From an uncultured Holophagaceae bacterium (GTDB taxonomy: Bacteria > Acidobacteriota > Holophagae > Holophagales > Holophagaceae), in the NCBI GenBank assembly GCA_903857495.1, contig CAIOFF010000035.1, positions 62,001 to 126,000 of the forward strand: a stretch of 64,000 nt of DNA, in the 5' to 3' direction. Made by a program: the position numbers and the translations under genes. Each line of letters starts with the position of its first letter. Position 1 is the first letter of the stretch. Below are positions 36,008-62,454 of the stretch, one piece after another. Under the pieces are notes generated by a model. That model ran no database searches. It had not been told where the DNA came from and saw nothing but the letters and a program-made list of their open reading frames with translations.

Positions 36008-36147
36008 GACTTCTAACTATCGGACAACCACGGGCCAAGGGGAATGCCACTGACCGAAATTCGGGCCATCCTGCCTCCAGAGCCATGGGACCATCGGGGC
36101 TCGGGTGCCGCTCCCTGGAACCCAGACCCTGGCCCACAAGGACCCCC

Positions 36148-37470
36148 ATGGCTGCCGACACCATCAGTGTTTTCCACCCCAGCACACGGCTCTACCGGTT
36201 CACCATCCTGCTCTTCATCAGCCTGCTGGTCTTTGGCAGCTACTTCGCCTACGACAGCATCGGGGCGCTCGAGACCACGCTGATGAAGGAATTGAACCTC
36301 GGCCGTAGCGACATCGGGAACCTCTATACCGCCTATTCCGTGGCGGCCATCGCCATCGTCTTCTTCGGCGGCATGCTCTACGACCTGCTCGGTCCCCGCC
36401 GGGCGAGCCTCCTCTTCAGCCTCCTGGTCCTCCTGGGAGCCGTCATGGTGGCCATGGCCAAGACCAAGGCCATGCTCTTTACTGGTCGCTTGGTCTTCGG
36501 GGCGGGCTCCGAGTCGCTGATCGTGGTGCAGAGCGCCATCATCAGCCGCTGGTTCAAGGGCAAGGAAATAGCGATGGCCTTCGGCATCACCCTCACCATC
36601 AGCCGGGTGGGAACCCTCTTCAGCTTCAACATCGAGGAGCTCATCGCGACCTACTTCGGCAGCTTCCGGGTTGCGCTCTGGGCTGCGGCCGGCTTCTGCC
36701 TGTTCTCGGTGCTGTGCAACCTGGTCTTCAACCTCATGGACCGGCACGGCGAGCAGGTGCTGGAGCTATCGAAGCCCGGCGCCGGCGACCGTATTGTCTT
36801 CTCGGACATCAAGAAGTTCACCTCGTCCTACTGGCTCGTGGTACTGCTCTGTGTGACCTTCTACAGTGCCATCTTCCCCTTCACCGCCCTGGCCACGGAC
36901 ATGTTCCACGACAAGTGGCACCTGCCCCTGGTGAGCGCCAGCTCCGGCAGCTTCCTCTCCCAGGTGTTCTTCAACTTCACCCACATGTTCAGCACGGCGC
37001 CCGGCGTCACCAGCATCGTCATCGCCGCCTCCATGATCTTCGCGCCCTTCGCCGGGGACCTGGTGGACCGCATCGGGCGGCGGGCCTCACTCATGGTGCT
37101 GGGCTCGCTCATCCTCGTCCCGGCCCACCTGCTCATGGGCATCACCCACTGGAACCCCATCCCCATGATGATCCTGCTGGGTGCGGCCTTCGTGCTGGTA
37201 CCCGCAGCCATGTGGCCCTCGGTGCCCCTGGTGGTGGAGGAGAAGCGGGTGGGCACGGCTTTCGGGTTGATGACAGCCATCCAGAACCTCGGCCTCGGCC
37301 TCTTCCCCTTCCTGAACGGCAGGCTCCGGGATGCCACCGGAACCTACACGGCCACCCAGGTGATGTTCGCGGGTCTCGGCTTGGCGGGGCTTGTCTTCGC
37401 CTTCCTCCTGTTGCGCTCCGACCGGCGCCATGGGGGTGTCCTGGAGGCGGGGCGACCGGCGGAGCCCTGA
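36148..37470 (+). CDS. MFS transporter, MFSD1-like
   Basis: This is a 440-residue major facilitator with about 12 helices. The loop DLLGPRRASLLFSLLVLLGA after the second helix is the MFS signature. GRLVFGAGSESLIVVQSAIISRWFKGKEIAMAFGI recalls eukaryotic MFSD1, a lysosomal dipeptide exporter. ATG 36148 is preceded by AAGGA; the frame is open about 20 codons further up without a site. A peptide or organic-anion substrate is possible but only inferred. Confidence 0.78.
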   Translation: MAADTISVFHPSTRLYRFTILLFISLLVFGSYFAYDSIGALETTLMKELNLGRSDIGNLYTAYSVAAIAIVFFGGMLYDLLGPRRASLLFSLLVLLGAVMVAMAKTKAMLFTGRLVFGAGSESLIVVQSAIISRWFKGKEIAMAFGITLTISRVGTLFSFNIEELIATYFGSFRVALWAAAGFCLFSVLCNLVFNLMDRHGEQVLELSKPGAGDRIVFSDIKKFTSSYWLVVLLCVTFYSAIFPFTALATDMFHDKWHLPLVSASSGSFLSQVFFNFTHMFSTAPGVTSIVIAASMIFAPFAGDLVDRIGRRASLMVLGSLILVPAHLLMGITHWNPIPMMILLGAAFVLVPAAMWPSVPLVVEEKRVGTAFGLMTAIQNLGLGLFPFLNGRLRDATGTYTATQVMFAGLGLAGLVFAFLLLRSDRRHGGVLEAGRPAEP

Positions 37471-37502: not shown

Positions 37503-37928
37503 ATGACCCGCTGGCGAAGGACCCTGGCATTCCTGGCCGCAGGCCTGGTCTGCCTAGCGGTCCTGGTGCCACTGTGCGCCTGCGGCCCGGCCACCCCCCC
37601 ACCGCCTCCAGCCCCGGCCCCGGCGCAGGTCCAGGTGCAGGTCGCGCCCCCGGTGGCCGCCCTCCCGGCCTACGTGCGCCAGACCCTTGCCTACGTCCGC
37701 CAGCACGGCTACGCTCCCCCGGGCTATGTGGGCGGTCGGATCTATGGGAACTACGAGGGCCAGCTGCCCCGCTACAACGCCCGGCGCAAGCGCATCGAGT
37801 ACCGCGAGTGGGATGTCCGGCCCCGGGCCGAGGGCCGCAACCGGGGTGCAGAGCGCCTGGTCACGGGCAACGACGGCCGCGCCTGGTATACCGCCGACCA
37901 CTACAAGACCTTTCTCGAGGTGAAATGA
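37503..37928 (+). CDS. Exported barnase-like (RNase N1/T1 family) ribonuclease
   Basis: This 141-residue protein has a signal peptide with a possible lipobox (LCAC, Cys27). A Pro/Gln-rich linker (about 30-52) follows, then a barnase-type domain: GGRIYGNYEGQLP, YREWDV, GRNRGAERL and ADHYKTF. Residues equivalent to barnase Glu73, Arg83, Arg87 and His102 are present as Glu102, Arg112, Arg118 and His133, so it should be an active guanyl-preferring RNase outside the cytoplasm. The overlapping next gene encodes a barstar-like protein. It could be a weapon or a nucleic-acid scavenging enzyme. Confidence 0.88.
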   Translation: MTRWRRTLAFLAAGLVCLAVLVPLCACGPATPPPPPAPAPAQVQVQVAPPVAALPAYVRQTLAYVRQHGYAPPGYVGGRIYGNYEGQLPRYNARRKRIEYREWDVRPRAEGRNRGAERLVTGNDGRAWYTADHYKTFLEVK

Positions 37929-38371
37929 CCGGTCTCGCCTACCCCGCCCCCGGAGACCCCCTGCTCCAGGTCTGGCGTGGCTCGGCGGCCACCCTTGTGG
38001 ACGCCACGGCGGACAAGGGCCCCGTCTGGTGGCTGCGGGGCGCCCGCATGCGGACCCGGCGCGGGCTCATGGATGAGTGGGCCGCCGCCGCCCAGTTCCC
38101 ACCCTACTTCGGGGGCACCTGGGACGCCCTGCGCGATGCGCTCGCGGACCTGCCCGAGGGGGGCACCTTCCTGATCCTCGACGCGGAGCAGCTCTTCCAG
38201 GAGGCTCCACCCGTCGATGGCATCACCTGGCTGGCGGTGCTGCGGGCGGCGGCCGAGGAACTGGCACCCAAGCCCTTCCGGGTGATCCTCCAGGCGGAAC
38301 CGGCGCGGTTCCGGGACCTGGAGAAGGGGGTCCAGGCACTACTGGTAGAGGGGGCCGAGGGGCCGACTTAA
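37925..38371 (+). CDS. Barstar-family RNase inhibitor
   Basis: This 148-residue cytoplasmic protein has the barstar core FPPYFGGTWDALRDAL. Asp67 and Asp71 correspond to barstar Asp35 and Asp39, which plug the barnase active site. The ATG overlaps the stop of the RNase gene (ATGA), so the inhibitor is made in step with the enzyme and protects the cell before export. It is longer than classic barstar (about 90 residues), with an N-terminal extension of about 35 residues. The pairing is supported by sequence and position. Confidence 0.87.
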   Translation: MTGLAYPAPGDPLLQVWRGSAATLVDATADKGPVWWLRGARMRTRRGLMDEWAAAAQFPPYFGGTWDALRDALADLPEGGTFLILDAEQLFQEAPPVDGITWLAVLRAAAEELAPKPFRVILQAEPARFRDLEKGVQALLVEGAEGPT

Positions 38372-38433: not shown

Positions 38434-39516
38434 ATGAGCCGCGACCTCTTCAGCCCCGCCACCCTCGGCGTCCTCACCCTCTCGAATCGCGTGGTCATGG
38501 CCCCCATGACCCGCAACCGCTCGCTCGGCAACGTCCCCGGGGAGCTGGTGGCGACCTACTATGGGCAGCGCGCCAGCGCGGGGCTCATCATCACCGAGGG
38601 GACCTCGCCTTCGCCCAATGGCCTGGGTTACCCCCGTATTCCCGGCATCTTCTCCGAGGCCCAGGTGGCGGGCTGGAAGGCCGTGGCGGCGGCCGTTCAC
38701 GCTAAGGGTGGGAAGCTCTTCCTCCAGCTGATGCACACGGGCCGCATCGGCCACGCGGCCAACCTGCCTGTTGGGGCAGAGGTCCTGGCGCCCTCGGCCG
38801 TGGCAGCGGCGGGGGAGATCTGGACCGACGCCCAGGGCCTGCAGCCGCATCCCGTGCCCCGGGCCATGACCGAGCAGGACATCCGGCAGGCCGTGGCGGA
38901 GTTCGCCCAGGGCTGTGTCAACGCCGTGGAGGCGGGCTTCGACGGGGTGGAGCTCCACTCGGCCAACGGCTACCTGCTGGAGCAGTTCCTCAACCCAGGC
39001 TCCAACACCCGCACGGACGCCTATGGCGGCTCTATCGAGAACCGCAGCCGCTTCACCCTGGAGGTGGCGGCCGCGGCGGTGGCCACCATCGGCAAGGACC
39101 GCGTGGGTATCCGCCTGTCTCCCCACGGCGTGTTCAACGACATCGCGCCCTTCGACGAGACCGAGGCGGCCTACACCTATCTGGCCCAGCAGATCGACGA
39201 GCTGGGACTCGTCTACCTGCACCTGGTGGACCACAGCGCCATGGGTGCGCCCGCCGTGGCGCCGGCGACGGTCCAGAAGATGCGGGAGGCTTACCGGGGC
39301 ACCCTGATCCTGAGCGGCGGCTACGACCGGGCCAGGGCCGAGGTGGATCTGGCTGCGGGCCGGGCGGACATGATTGCCTTCGGCCGCCCGTTCATCTCGA
39401 ACCCGGACCTGCCCGCCCGCCTGCAGGCGGGAGCACCTCTGGCCGACTACGACATGGCCGCCTTCTACACCCCCGGAGCGAAGAGCTACACGGACTACCC
39501 AGCCCTGAACGCCTAG
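38434..39516 (+). CDS. Old Yellow Enzyme family alkene reductase
   Basis: This is a 360-residue FMN-dependent oxidoreductase of the NemA/xenobiotic reductase type, reducing activated C=C bonds or nitro compounds. It begins with LFSPATLGVLTLSNRVVMAPMTRNRS. The ELHSANGYLLEQFLNPGSNTRTDAYGGSIENRSRF block has the His and Asn that bind the substrate carbonyl. The FMN phosphate site is GRPFISNPDL near the end. The ATG has a strong AAAGGAGA site. It converges on yceH with a shared CTAG. Confidence 0.92.
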   Translation: MSRDLFSPATLGVLTLSNRVVMAPMTRNRSLGNVPGELVATYYGQRASAGLIITEGTSPSPNGLGYPRIPGIFSEAQVAGWKAVAAAVHAKGGKLFLQLMHTGRIGHAANLPVGAEVLAPSAVAAAGEIWTDAQGLQPHPVPRAMTEQDIRQAVAEFAQGCVNAVEAGFDGVELHSANGYLLEQFLNPGSNTRTDAYGGSIENRSRFTLEVAAAAVATIGKDRVGIRLSPHGVFNDIAPFDETEAAYTYLAQQIDELGLVYLHLVDHSAMGAPAVAPATVQKMREAYRGTLILSGGYDRARAEVDLAAGRADMIAFGRPFISNPDLPARLQAGAPLADYDMAAFYTPGAKSYTDYPALNA

Positions 39517-40136
39517 AACTGGTCCCGGAAGGCTTCGAAGGCCTGGCGCAGCTCCGCCAGCTCGGCGCGGAGGGCGGTCATCTCGGCTTCAAGCTGCTCC
39601 ACACGGCCCGTGCGGGCGGGGGTGGCTTCCGCGGCGGGCCCGGTCTCCACGGGACCCGCCAGCAACTGCGCGACGCGGGCTTCCCGGGCGCCGGGGGCCC
39701 TTGGCAGGCGCTGGACCAGGGGCGGCTCAGCCTCCATCAGCACGGCCAGGCAGCCTTCGACCTCGGCGAGGTCCGGGAAGGCGTACATGCGCCGGGTGTT
39801 GGTGCGCAGCTCGCCGGAGGTCTGGGGGCCCCGGAGCAGCAGCTCCGCCAGGAGGGCCGCCTCCTGCACAGACAGGTTCCAGGTGGGCTTGGCGGTGTGG
39901 GCGATCTTGACCACCCGGCCCGGCCAGTGCTCCGCGAGCCCCCGCTCGATCAGGGTGTTCACGGCGGCCTGGACCTCGTCCTCGCTGACGGAGAGCACCG
40001 GGTCCCGGTTGCTGGACTGGTTGCAGGCGTTCAGCAGGCTGTTGAGGGACAGGGGGTAGATGTCCGGGGTGCTGAGCTGCTTCTCCAGGAGGCAGCCGAG
40101 GACGCGGCATTCCAGGGGGTCGAGGTCGAAGTCCAT
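39513..40136 (-). CDS. yceH: YceH family (DUF480) protein
   Basis: This 207-residue protein has the DUF480 start LDPLECRVLGCLLEKQLSTPDIYPLSLNSLLNACNQSSNRDPV and two winged-helix-like repeats (VQAAVNTLIERGLAEH, TSGELRTNTRRMYAFPDLAEVEGCL). A C-terminal coiled coil follows (VEQLEAEMTALRAELAELRQAF). The family is widespread and its function is unresolved; the fold suggests nucleic acid binding. It lies 8 bases upstream of thiG's stop in the same leftward direction as thiG. Confidence 0.9.
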   Translation of the reverse strand: MDFDLDPLECRVLGCLLEKQLSTPDIYPLSLNSLLNACNQSSNRDPVLSVSEDEVQAAVNTLIERGLAEHWPGRVVKIAHTAKPTWNLSVQEAALLAELLLRGPQTSGELRTNTRRMYAFPDLAEVEGCLAVLMEAEPPLVQRLPRAPGAREARVAQLLAGPVETGPAAEATPARTGRVEQLEAEMTALRAELAELRQAFEAFRDQF

Positions 40137-42904: not shown

Positions 42905-43080
42905 GACGTTCCGATGGAGGAGCGGTTCCCATCAGTAGCCACGGCGAGGGTGATGAACCCACTGACCCGGTGTGAAAGGGGAGAATCGCCGAAGGGTTCG
43001 CGGCTCATCGACGCGCCCCCTGGACGTTGAGGCGAAAGCCCGGCGGCTGTCGTGCTGGTCACCCGGCGCGGAGGGCCTGA
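42905..43080 (+). promoter_or_regulatory. Lysine riboswitch (L box)
   Basis: The leader of the lysine operon contains the conserved L-box blocks in order. They are GGAGGAGCGG (42916-42925), CAGTAGCC (42933-42940), GATGAACCC (42952-42960), GAAAGGGG (42974-42981) directly followed by the highly conserved AATCGCCGAAG (42984-42994), GGCTGTC (43045-43051), a hairpin GTGCTGG/CCGGCGC (43052-43058/43063-43069), and GGAGGGC (43070-43076). The block order matches the B. subtilis lysC leader. I could not resolve the P1 closing stem. No terminator with a U-tract follows. A small hairpin (TCGG 43125-43128 with CCGA 43133-43136) overlaps the dapE ribosome site, so control may be at translation. Confidence 0.9.
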
Positions 43081-43143
43081 GGCGCGGCGGCGGGAATCCT
43101 CCCACTGCGTTCCTGAAGGCACCGTCGGCACGCCGAGGTAGCT

Positions 43144-44178
43144 ATGAACGCCATCCCCGCAGACTTCCAATCCTGGCTGAGCACTCGGCTGGTGGAGCTC
43201 TGCGCGGCCGAGACCACCTCGGGCCAGGAGGATGCGGGCCTGCCTGGACTCCGGGCGCTGCTCCAGGAGCTGGGCGCCACCTTGGTGGAGCAGCCCGTGG
43301 GGCCTGGGCGCACCAACCTGCTGGCCCTGTGGGGACGGCCTCGGGTGCTGTTCTCCACCCACCTGGACACGGTGCCCCCCTACCTGCCGCCCCGCCTCCA
43401 GGACGGGGCGATCTGGGGCCGCGGCGCCTGCGACGCCAAAGGCCAGATCATGGCCCAACTGGGCGCGGTGAAGACCCTGCTGGCGGAAGGTCGCGAGGGC
43501 TTCGCCTGGCTGGGCGTGGTGAGCGAGGAGACGGACAGCACCGGCGCTGCCGCGGCCCTGGGTCTGGCGGACCGCCTCCAGGATCTGAAGGCGCTGATCA
43601 ATGGCGAGCCGACGGAGCTGAAGCTGGCCACGGGCCAGCGCGGCGCCATGCACCTCTGTCTCCACTGCAGCGGCCGGGCCGCCCACAGCGGCAGCCCCCA
43701 GCTGGGGGAGAACGCCACTTGGCCCCTGCTGGACTGGCTCCAGCGCCTGCGCGAGCAGCCCCGGGCCGTGGACCCCCAGCTGGGGCCCGAGGTCTGGAAC
43801 CTGGGCCTCCTGCGGGCCGGGGAAGCCCTCAACTCGGTGCCGGCCTCGGCGGAGGCGCACCTCATGGCGCGGCTGGTGCCCGGCAGCGCCTTCCTGGATG
43901 ACGTCCGCCGCCTGGCGCCGCCCAACAGCCAGGTCGACCTTCGGATGGACGAGCCGCCGGACCTGTATCCCGTCCTGCCCGCCTTCGAGCACGCGGCCAT
44001 GCCCTTCGGCTCGGATGCCCCGGCGCTGCGGGTGCTGGTGCCCGACCGCACCGTGGTGTTGGCGGGGCCTGGCAGCATCACCGTCGCGCACACCCTCAAC
44101 GAGCACCTCCCCTTGGCCGAGCTCGAGGCCGGGGTCGAACTCAACCGCCGACTGGCACTGCACTTCCTAGGAGACTGA
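43144..44178 (+). CDS. dapE: M20-family amidohydrolase, probable succinyl-diaminopimelate desuccinylase
   Basis: This is a 344-residue dinuclear zinc peptidase of the M20 family. Metal and catalytic residues are visible in FSTHLDTVPP, GRGACDAKGQ, VVSEETDSTG and the C-terminal AHTLNEHLP. GRAAHSGSP starts the dimerisation lid. M20 enzymes include DapE, ArgE and carboxypeptidases. The setting as first gene of a lysine operon that includes dapD makes DapE the best call. It is directly behind the L-box and is 3 bases from asd. Confidence 0.82.
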   Translation: MNAIPADFQSWLSTRLVELCAAETTSGQEDAGLPGLRALLQELGATLVEQPVGPGRTNLLALWGRPRVLFSTHLDTVPPYLPPRLQDGAIWGRGACDAKGQIMAQLGAVKTLLAEGREGFAWLGVVSEETDSTGAAAALGLADRLQDLKALINGEPTELKLATGQRGAMHLCLHCSGRAAHSGSPQLGENATWPLLDWLQRLREQPRAVDPQLGPEVWNLGLLRAGEALNSVPASAEAHLMARLVPGSAFLDDVRRLAPPNSQVDLRMDEPPDLYPVLPAFEHAAMPFGSDAPALRVLVPDRTVVLAGPGSITVAHTLNEHLPLAELEAGVELNRRLALHFLGD

Positions 44179-44181
44179 ACC

Positions 44182-45237
44182 ATGACCACGAAAATCCCCG
44201 TCACCGTCCTCGGCGCTACTGGCGTCGTCGGGCAGCGCTTCGTCCGCCGCCTGGCCAACCATCCCCTCTTCCGGGTCGAGCACCTCGCGGCAAGTGAGCG
44301 CAGCGCGGGCAAGCGCTACCGCGACGCCTGCGCCTGGCGGCTGGACGGCGAGCCCTACGGCGGGCTGGGCGACCAGATCATGGCCGACGGCACGCCGGAG
44401 TTCGCCCTGTCCCCCGTGGTGTTCAGCGCCCTCGACACGGGTCCGGCCCAGGAGCTTGAGCCCCAGTTCGCCAAGGCCGGATCCATGGTGTTCTCGAATG
44501 CGGGGGCTTTCCGCATGTCCCCGGAGGTTCCCCTCTTGGTGCCGGAAGTGAACGCCAGCCACCTGGGCCTGTTGGACATCCAGCGCCACCACCACGGCTG
44601 GACCGGCGGCATCGTCACCAACGCCAACTGCACCGCCACGGTGCTGGTCATGGCCCTGGCGCCCCTGCACGAAGCCTTCGGCATCGAGGCCGTGATGATG
44701 ACCTCCATGCAGGCCATCAGCGGCGCGGGCTACCCCGGCGTGCCCAGCCTCGACATCCTGGGCAACGTCATCCCCTTCATCCGGAACGAGGAGCCGAAGG
44801 TGGAGGAGGAGACCCCGAAGATGCTGGGCCACTTCAATGGCAAGGTCGTGGTGATGGCCCCCATGCTGGTGAGTGCCCTGTGCCACCGCGTGCCCGTCAT
44901 TGAGGGCCACACCGAGGCTGTCAGCGTGCGACTCAAGGGCAACCCCTCCCTGGACGCCGTGCGCGAGGCCTGGCTGGCCTGGAAGCCCGAGCCCCAGCAG
45001 CTGGGTCTCTTCTCGGCGCCTGCGACGCCCATCCATGTCCACACCCTGGACGACCGTCCCCAGGTGCGCCGGGATGTGGACCGCGACGAGGGCATGAGTG
45101 TCCACGTCGGCCGTCTCCGCGCCTGCCCCATCCTCGGCGTGAAGTTCGCCCTGCTGGGCCACAACACCGAGCGCGGCGCCGCCGGCGGCAGCATCCTGAA
45201 CGCCGAGCTGGCCCACGCGAAGGGATACCTCCGATGA
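44182..45237 (+). CDS. asd: Aspartate-semialdehyde dehydrogenase
   Basis: Asd makes the branch-point semialdehyde for lysine, threonine and methionine. The 351-residue protein has the nucleotide site VTVLGATGVVGQRFVRRL, the catalytic cysteine in NANCTAT and the MQAISGAGYPGVPSLDI block. It is of the archaeal/fungal-type subgroup rather than the E. coli type. It overlaps lysC by 4 bases (ATGA). A degenerate homologue without the cysteine lies at 27.8 kb. Confidence 0.95.
   Translation: MTTKIPVTVLGATGVVGQRFVRRLANHPLFRVEHLAASERSAGKRYRDACAWRLDGEPYGGLGDQIMADGTPEFALSPVVFSALDTGPAQELEPQFAKAGSMVFSNAGAFRMSPEVPLLVPEVNASHLGLLDIQRHHHGWTGGIVTNANCTATVLVMALAPLHEAFGIEAVMMTSMQAISGAGYPGVPSLDILGNVIPFIRNEEPKVEEETPKMLGHFNGKVVVMAPMLVSALCHRVPVIEGHTEAVSVRLKGNPSLDAVREAWLAWKPEPQQLGLFSAPATPIHVHTLDDRPQVRRDVDRDEGMSVHVGRLRACPILGVKFALLGHNTERGAAGGSILNAELAHAKGYLR

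Positions 45238-60594: not shown

Positions 60595-62454
<1,860 letters not shown>

Follow-up and report, generated by a model that had tools for sequence, protein, structure and literature searches.

A barnase/RNase Sa-type RNase with a probable lipid anchor and an overlapping barstar gene in a Geothrix-like Holophagaceae bacterium

The gene pair and its protein families

The stretch of DNA analysed here (the window: 64,000 nucleotides, positions 62,001 to 126,000 of contig CAIOFF010000035.1, assembly GCA_903857495.1) carries on its forward strand an RNase gene and a barstar-family inhibitor gene that overlap by 4 nt (ATGA), together with the neighbours listed in Table 1. The host is a Geothrix-like member of the Holophagaceae, a soil and sediment bacterium, the nearest named records in sequence searches coming from uncultured Holophagaceae at 96% identity and from Geothrix species at 67–74%. 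Its genome holds a single copy of each gene, and a scan for promoters and terminators found nothing.

Table 1. Features of the RNase–barstar locus, in window coordinates.
Feature	Coordinates	Strand	Basis
MFS transporter, 32 nt upstream of the RNase; syntenic marker	36085..37470	+	PF07690; adjoins DUF480 at sites without the pair
RNase (141 aa; RNase Sa/barnase family, PF00545) bearing a signal and tether at its N-terminus	37503..37928	+	PF00545 at 2.6e-15, AlphaFold2 model, catalytic residues
Signal sequence, residues 1–27, the last being Cys27, presumed lipidated	37503..37583	+	Model helix 3–26; Cys27 in 36/39 of the genus; box non-canonical
Pro/Ala/Gln/Val-rich linker (tether), residues 28–53	37584..37661	+	Low confidence in model; orthologues vary in length and composition
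Catalytic domain, residues 54–141, with E102, R114, R118 and H133	37662..37925	+	Median dN/dS 0.139; alignments to solved RNases
Barstar-family inhibitor, 148 aa, ATG within the RNase stop (ATGA)	37925..38371	+	PF01337 at 1.4e-14; model against barstar 1bgs_E; D67, D71
Old-yellow-enzyme-type flavin oxidoreductase, downstream, only in some relatives	38434..39516	+	PF00724
DUF480 protein, right-hand syntenic marker	39513..40136	-	PF04337

A preliminary description of this DNA had named the two genes a barnase–barstar pair, and this identification is borne out: both genes lie where they had been placed, and their families, folds and key residues agree with solved structures. The RNase matches PF00545 (E 2.6e-15; 57.1 bits, cut-off 24), its sole Pfam domain, and thus belongs with RNase Sa, Sa2 and Sa3 of Streptomyces and barnase and binase of Bacillus, whose family, fold and catalytic residues it shares. 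With a profile built from 38 relatives, E was 2e-22 for RNase Sa3 and ~1e-10 for barnase chains; judged from this profile, the protein is closer in sequence to RNase Sa than to barnase, and RNase Sa3 is nearest. Its AlphaFold2 model (pLDDT 82.6) is predicted to have the barnase/RNase Sa fold: the best PDB matches are barnase and RNase Sa2, and the best 50 of the 66 matches at E ≤ 0.001 are barnase, binase and RNase Sa2/Sa3. The four barnase catalytic residues that had been claimed for it are likewise present in alignments to solved RNases, as E102, R114, R118 and H133, which we take to be Glu73, Arg83, Arg87 and His102 of barnase, and they are invariant in all 47 Holophagaceae RNases.

The inhibitor matches PF01337 (E 1.4e-14; 54.3 bits, cut-off 23.4), and a profile of 36 relatives matches barstar chains at E ~1e-8; a single-sequence search with the window inhibitor alone found no barstar chain. 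Its model (pLDDT 85.3) again finds barstar chains as best PDB matches (1bgs_E, TM-score by target ~0.8). One PDB entry, 1ay7, contains an RNase Sa chain with a barstar chain. The inhibitor has the barstar fold and DxxxD segment, and the two Asp that had been noted in it, D67 and D71, align with those of the barstar DALWD segment; D67 is Asp in 46 of the 47 family members, while position 71 is Asp throughout the genus (39/39) and Glu in the other family genera (8/8). It differs from barstar in having ~35 extra N-terminal residues, predicted to form a strand and a helix, and in carrying Arg at what we take to be the Trp38 position and Trp at that of Leu34.

Export and anchoring of the RNase

The RNase runs from a signal sequence, ending at Cys27-Gly28, through ~25–26 residues rich in Pro, Ala, Gln and Val into the catalytic domain. 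RNase Sa, barnase and their kin are freely secreted; in contrast, the Cys-ended signal and linker of the window RNase suggest a tether. All 39 genus RNases have, as read by eye, a basic start and a long hydrophobic stretch, that is, an export-type N-terminus. The signal contains WRRTLAF, and export by the Tat pathway was considered and rejected, as residue 5 is Arg in only 31/39 and residue 6 in 37/39; with a twin Arg that is not strictly conserved, Sec export is preferred.

This N-terminus also bears on whether the pair might be an intracellular toxin–antitoxin module, or simply a chance pair of decayed genes. Overlapping toxin and inhibitor genes and a patchy presence (8 of 47 genus genomes lack both) would fit such a reading. 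However, the export-type N-terminus occurs in every genus member, the frames are intact and under purifying selection, and the inhibitor is the second gene of the operon, so that we give it hardly any credence.

The possible lipobox and Pro-rich stretch of the preliminary description are both present, the former as L24-C25-A26-C27-G28, a non-canonical box. We scored the 39 genus orthologues with a strict and a short lipobox pattern, both drawn from general knowledge, and with a Pro-tolerant pattern, also allowing Asn at −1, that was made for this analysis; these fitted 5, 8 and 34 of the 39, respectively. Pro occupies −4 or −3 in 29 of the 35 genus RNases whose index-27 residue is Cys; a set of 15 other lipoprotein-like N-termini, collected with a crude filter from 724 kb of two Geothrix-group genomes, has no such Pro. 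Cys27 and Gly28 are kept in 36/39 orthologues, amid variable residues 23–25 and a variable linker; the other three form a single clade (SH-aLRT 100) in which Arg-Ala replaces Cys-Gly. The genome encodes Lgt, LspA and LolA, and by the E. coli rule Gly at +2 gives no inner-membrane retention signal. The eight RNases of other family genera include one with a lipobox by our pattern (L078) and seven without (L079–L085). In each of these seven, one Cys precedes the domain and another lies in DHYC, a possible disulphide instead of a lipobox; RNase Sa has such a disulphide.

Lipid anchoring, as first proposed, thus stands in part. The conserved Cys-Gly, the presence of Lgt, LspA and LolA, and homologues with orthodox lipoboxes argue for it, whereas Pro at −4/−3, the poor fit to the strict and short patterns, the three-genome Arg clade and the seven RNases of other family genera without a lipobox argue against; on these sequence features, anchoring through a lipid on Cys27 is likely rather than settled. 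Two other arrangements were weighed against it. In one, an uncleaved N-terminal transmembrane helix holds the RNase and Cys27 is kept for some other reason, as might be suggested by the Pro-containing non-canonical box, by helix 3–26 of the AlphaFold2 model, and by Bacteroidota relatives (L031–L035, L145, L151) whose hydrophobic N-termini have no evident lipobox. This is unlikely, given that Cys27-Gly28 persists in 36 of 39 orthologues while its surroundings vary, that the mature RNase has no partner Cys for Cys27, and that a relative with an orthodox lipobox (from Tsukamurella, described below) aligns at the same Cys. In the other, signal peptidase I would release the RNase into the periplasm or medium, as with RNase Sa and barnase. 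The Arg clade and most RNases of the other family genera fit free release; we consider it quite unlikely for the window protein itself, whose residues before Cys27 would poorly suit signal peptidase I and whose Cys is strongly kept within its own lineage.

Distribution, locus history and selection

Among 77 Holophagaceae genomes, 47 have the RNase and 49 a barstar, and a barstar adjoins the RNase in all 47; no RNase without barstar was found in these 77 genomes. Such adjacency, as a sequence pattern, supports binding and inhibition of the cognate RNase by the barstar. Within the genus (47 genomes, including the window's own), 39 have both genes and eight have neither, and in all 39 pairs the barstar gene starts 4 or 1 nt short of where the RNase stop codon ends. 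A barstar without a detected RNase occurs in two genomes, both of other family genera. In one of them (G053, locus L086, G053:C4:252000-257000), the frame preceding the barstar closes with DHYRTFTEVRP, the C-terminus of an RNase whose remainder is gone, showing that the inhibitor can outlive its RNase; in the other (G063), no RNase remnant was seen beside the barstar. Second, weaker barstars lie away from the pair in two genus genomes (G015:C135:4950-5198 and G047:C476:555-809).

The surroundings of the pair are nearly fixed. All 27 genus-like loci (L003–L029) have an MFS match on the upstream side, and 25 have DUF480 downstream, the exceptions (L008, L024) being loci that end early; in genera g4 and g6, ThiG also lies close to the pair. 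Among the eight genus genomes lacking the pair, three gave a DUF480 match and five did not, some of these five assemblies being incomplete. In all three readable empty sites, the MFS gene (84–87% identical) lies ~18, 34 or 83 bp from DUF480 with nothing between them, and the pair and what follows it are therefore acquired or lost as one unit. Functional linkage to the upstream MFS transporter was considered and rejected, as MFS remains where the pair is missing and is either ~40% or ~78–87% identical between genomes; the MFS protein beside the Tsukamurella pair is no clear relative either. An origin in mobile elements or phages was also discarded, since a search of 50,697 phage records gave no match and the nine plasmid matches are mostly Rhs toxins, plus the Tsukamurella pair. 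A PADLOC search for defence systems gave no match.

We estimated dN/dS from 702 of the 741 genus pairs (39 dropped for saturation), with 572 pairs for the linker and 700 for the signal. Median values were 0.139 for the catalytic domain, 0.347 for barstar, 0.361 for the linker and 0.45 for the signal. The pair is under purifying selection and does not have the look of diversifying toxin evolution. The Mantel correlation of RNase with barstar distances (0.704) was not above those of the control pairs (barstar with DUF480, 0.701; RNase with ThiG, 0.723), and therefore reflects shared descent, not co-evolution. We conclude that the pair is an old, vertically kept locus and not a polymorphic weapon cassette.

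These results bear most directly on the suggestion, made in the preliminary description, of a contact-dependent weapon. In such a reading, the tethered RNase would be passed to neighbours, perhaps with outer-membrane lipoproteins in the manner of SitA, and the barstar would confer immunity. The overlapping toxin-then-immunity gene order is in keeping with it, as is the use of the same RNase domain as the C-terminal toxin of plasmid Rhs proteins (barnase-type, hits H2–H5; 46% identical), although there the domain sits, as annotated, within a large Rhs protein whereas here it stands alone. The closest parallel in layout is SitA/SitI of myxobacteria, where the excerpted account describes a lipobox-bearing nuclease followed by its immunity gene, as in the window (PMC5562445). 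However, SitA as described there is polymorphic, is delivered by outer membrane exchange, and has orthologues reported solely in traAB-bearing species of Myxococcales (PMC5562445), whereas the window encodes one conserved RNase, with the same domain in 47/47 and no sign of delivery. Further, the protein is a single short domain with no carrier or translocation domains, present as one copy at one locus in fixed synteny and without polymorphism; purifying selection is stronger on its catalytic domain than on the inhibitor (0.139 versus 0.347); no additional immunity genes lie alongside; the neighbours (MFS, old-yellow-enzyme type, DUF480) include no delivery genes; and the T6SS sheath protein VipB was not found in the genome. 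We thus regard delivery to neighbours as distinctly improbable.

Proposed role and relatives beyond the family

Our preferred reading, which we hold to be somewhat better than an even bet, is that the RNase is tethered to a membrane of the envelope and scavenges or clears RNA, while the barstar guards the cytoplasm. The two genes would form an operon in which the RNase is translated first and the inhibitor second. The RNase would be exported, probably via Sec, and probably held at a membrane by the lipid on Cys27, with the catalytic domain standing off on the Pro-rich linker, and it would cut RNA in the periplasm or at the cell surface, probably after G as do RNase Sa and barnase. Cytoplasmic barstar would bind RNase not yet exported, plugging its active site with D67 and D71, and this neutralization would make the RNase gene tolerable. 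Zhang and colleagues have similarly argued, in the excerpted text, that departure of the toxin from the cytoplasm is what makes it bearable for the toxin gene to come first (Zhang et al., 2012; PMC3482391).

As to purpose, a likely housekeeping role would be the degradation of RNA reaching the envelope, whether for phosphate and nucleosides or for clearance. A nutrient RNase, which had been the other suggestion, or a clearance RNase likely fits the sequence evidence better than a weapon; the case for scavenging follows from the absence of weapon features, and the genes adjoining the pair include no RNA-uptake or phosphate gene. To our knowledge, the natural use of barnase-type RNases to the cell is still unclear. 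Among the secreted proteins surveyed in wastewater genomes, as excerpted, RNases were confined to the extracellular and unassigned exported groups, with none in other predicted compartments (PMC11495043).

Simple barnase–barstar pairs are widely distributed according to the excerpted text of Zhang and colleagues (2012; PMC3482391), which names Acidobacteria among the barstar carriers. The simple pairs described there resemble that of the window in their toxin–immunity order and in showing no notable polymorphism; the excerpt mentions no lipobox on them (PMC3482391), whereas the window RNase has a possible, non-canonical one. Our search for literature on lipid-anchored barnase-type RNases found none describing one by title or abstract. 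The pair is thus a textbook system in variant form, ordinary as such pairs go, with its probable anchor as the unusual feature.

A sample of 396 Acidobacteriota genomes contained the RNase in 32, six of them outside the Holophagaceae. Two genomes of another acidobacterial family (G200, G251) encode RNases with a canonical LSAC lipobox, followed by a downstream barstar motif, and a third genome outside the Holophagaceae (G118) an RNase with a hydrophobic N-terminus and no Cys nearby. One RNase match in another acidobacterial family (L098, G420:C29:307181-307459) has an in-frame TGA. The Bacteroidota had the RNase in nine of 395 genomes; the five N-termini read comprised three that are membrane-anchor-like, one with a Cys after the hydrophobic stretch and one that is toxin-like. 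Locus L030 has an orthodox lipobox, VIGC, and the N-termini of L031–L035 are hydrophobic; in L032 and L033, both from Bacteroidota, a methyltransferase gene rather than a barstar adjoins the membrane-anchored RNase, and each genome has one barstar elsewhere. Finally, on a Tsukamurella plasmid (L144; NZ_LR134467.1, 16798-20058), genes for MFS, RNase, barstar and exodeoxyribonuclease III follow one another, the last three joined by 4-nt overlaps, and the plasmid RNase, 42% identical to that of the window over nearly the full length, has an LVAC lipobox with the Cys aligned.

Tethering of PF00545 RNases thus appears from these N-termini to recur, in a sample that is small and chosen by similarity. 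It is tempting, if rather doubtful, to see in this a recurrent design of the Acidobacteriota, Bacteroidota and Actinomycetota, in which a lipid- or membrane-tethered RNase of the RNase Sa/barnase type is paired with a linked or unlinked cytoplasmic barstar; this might constitute an unrecognized class of cell-surface RNases that gained and lost their anchor several times and possibly travel with lipoproteins to neighbouring cells. Here a conserved, probably tethered RNase occurs in a culturable genus, and its Cys-less clade and clean empty sites form a natural series that would allow testing whether, and why, the RNase acts at the cell's own surface.

Elsewhere in the window, a Lysine riboswitch (42907-43086, + strand; 64.3 bits, gathering threshold 30) directly precedes an open frame at 43144-44178. 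By eye from the translations, this frame resembles a peptidase-type deacylase and the one following (44182-45237) an aspartate-semialdehyde dehydrogenase.
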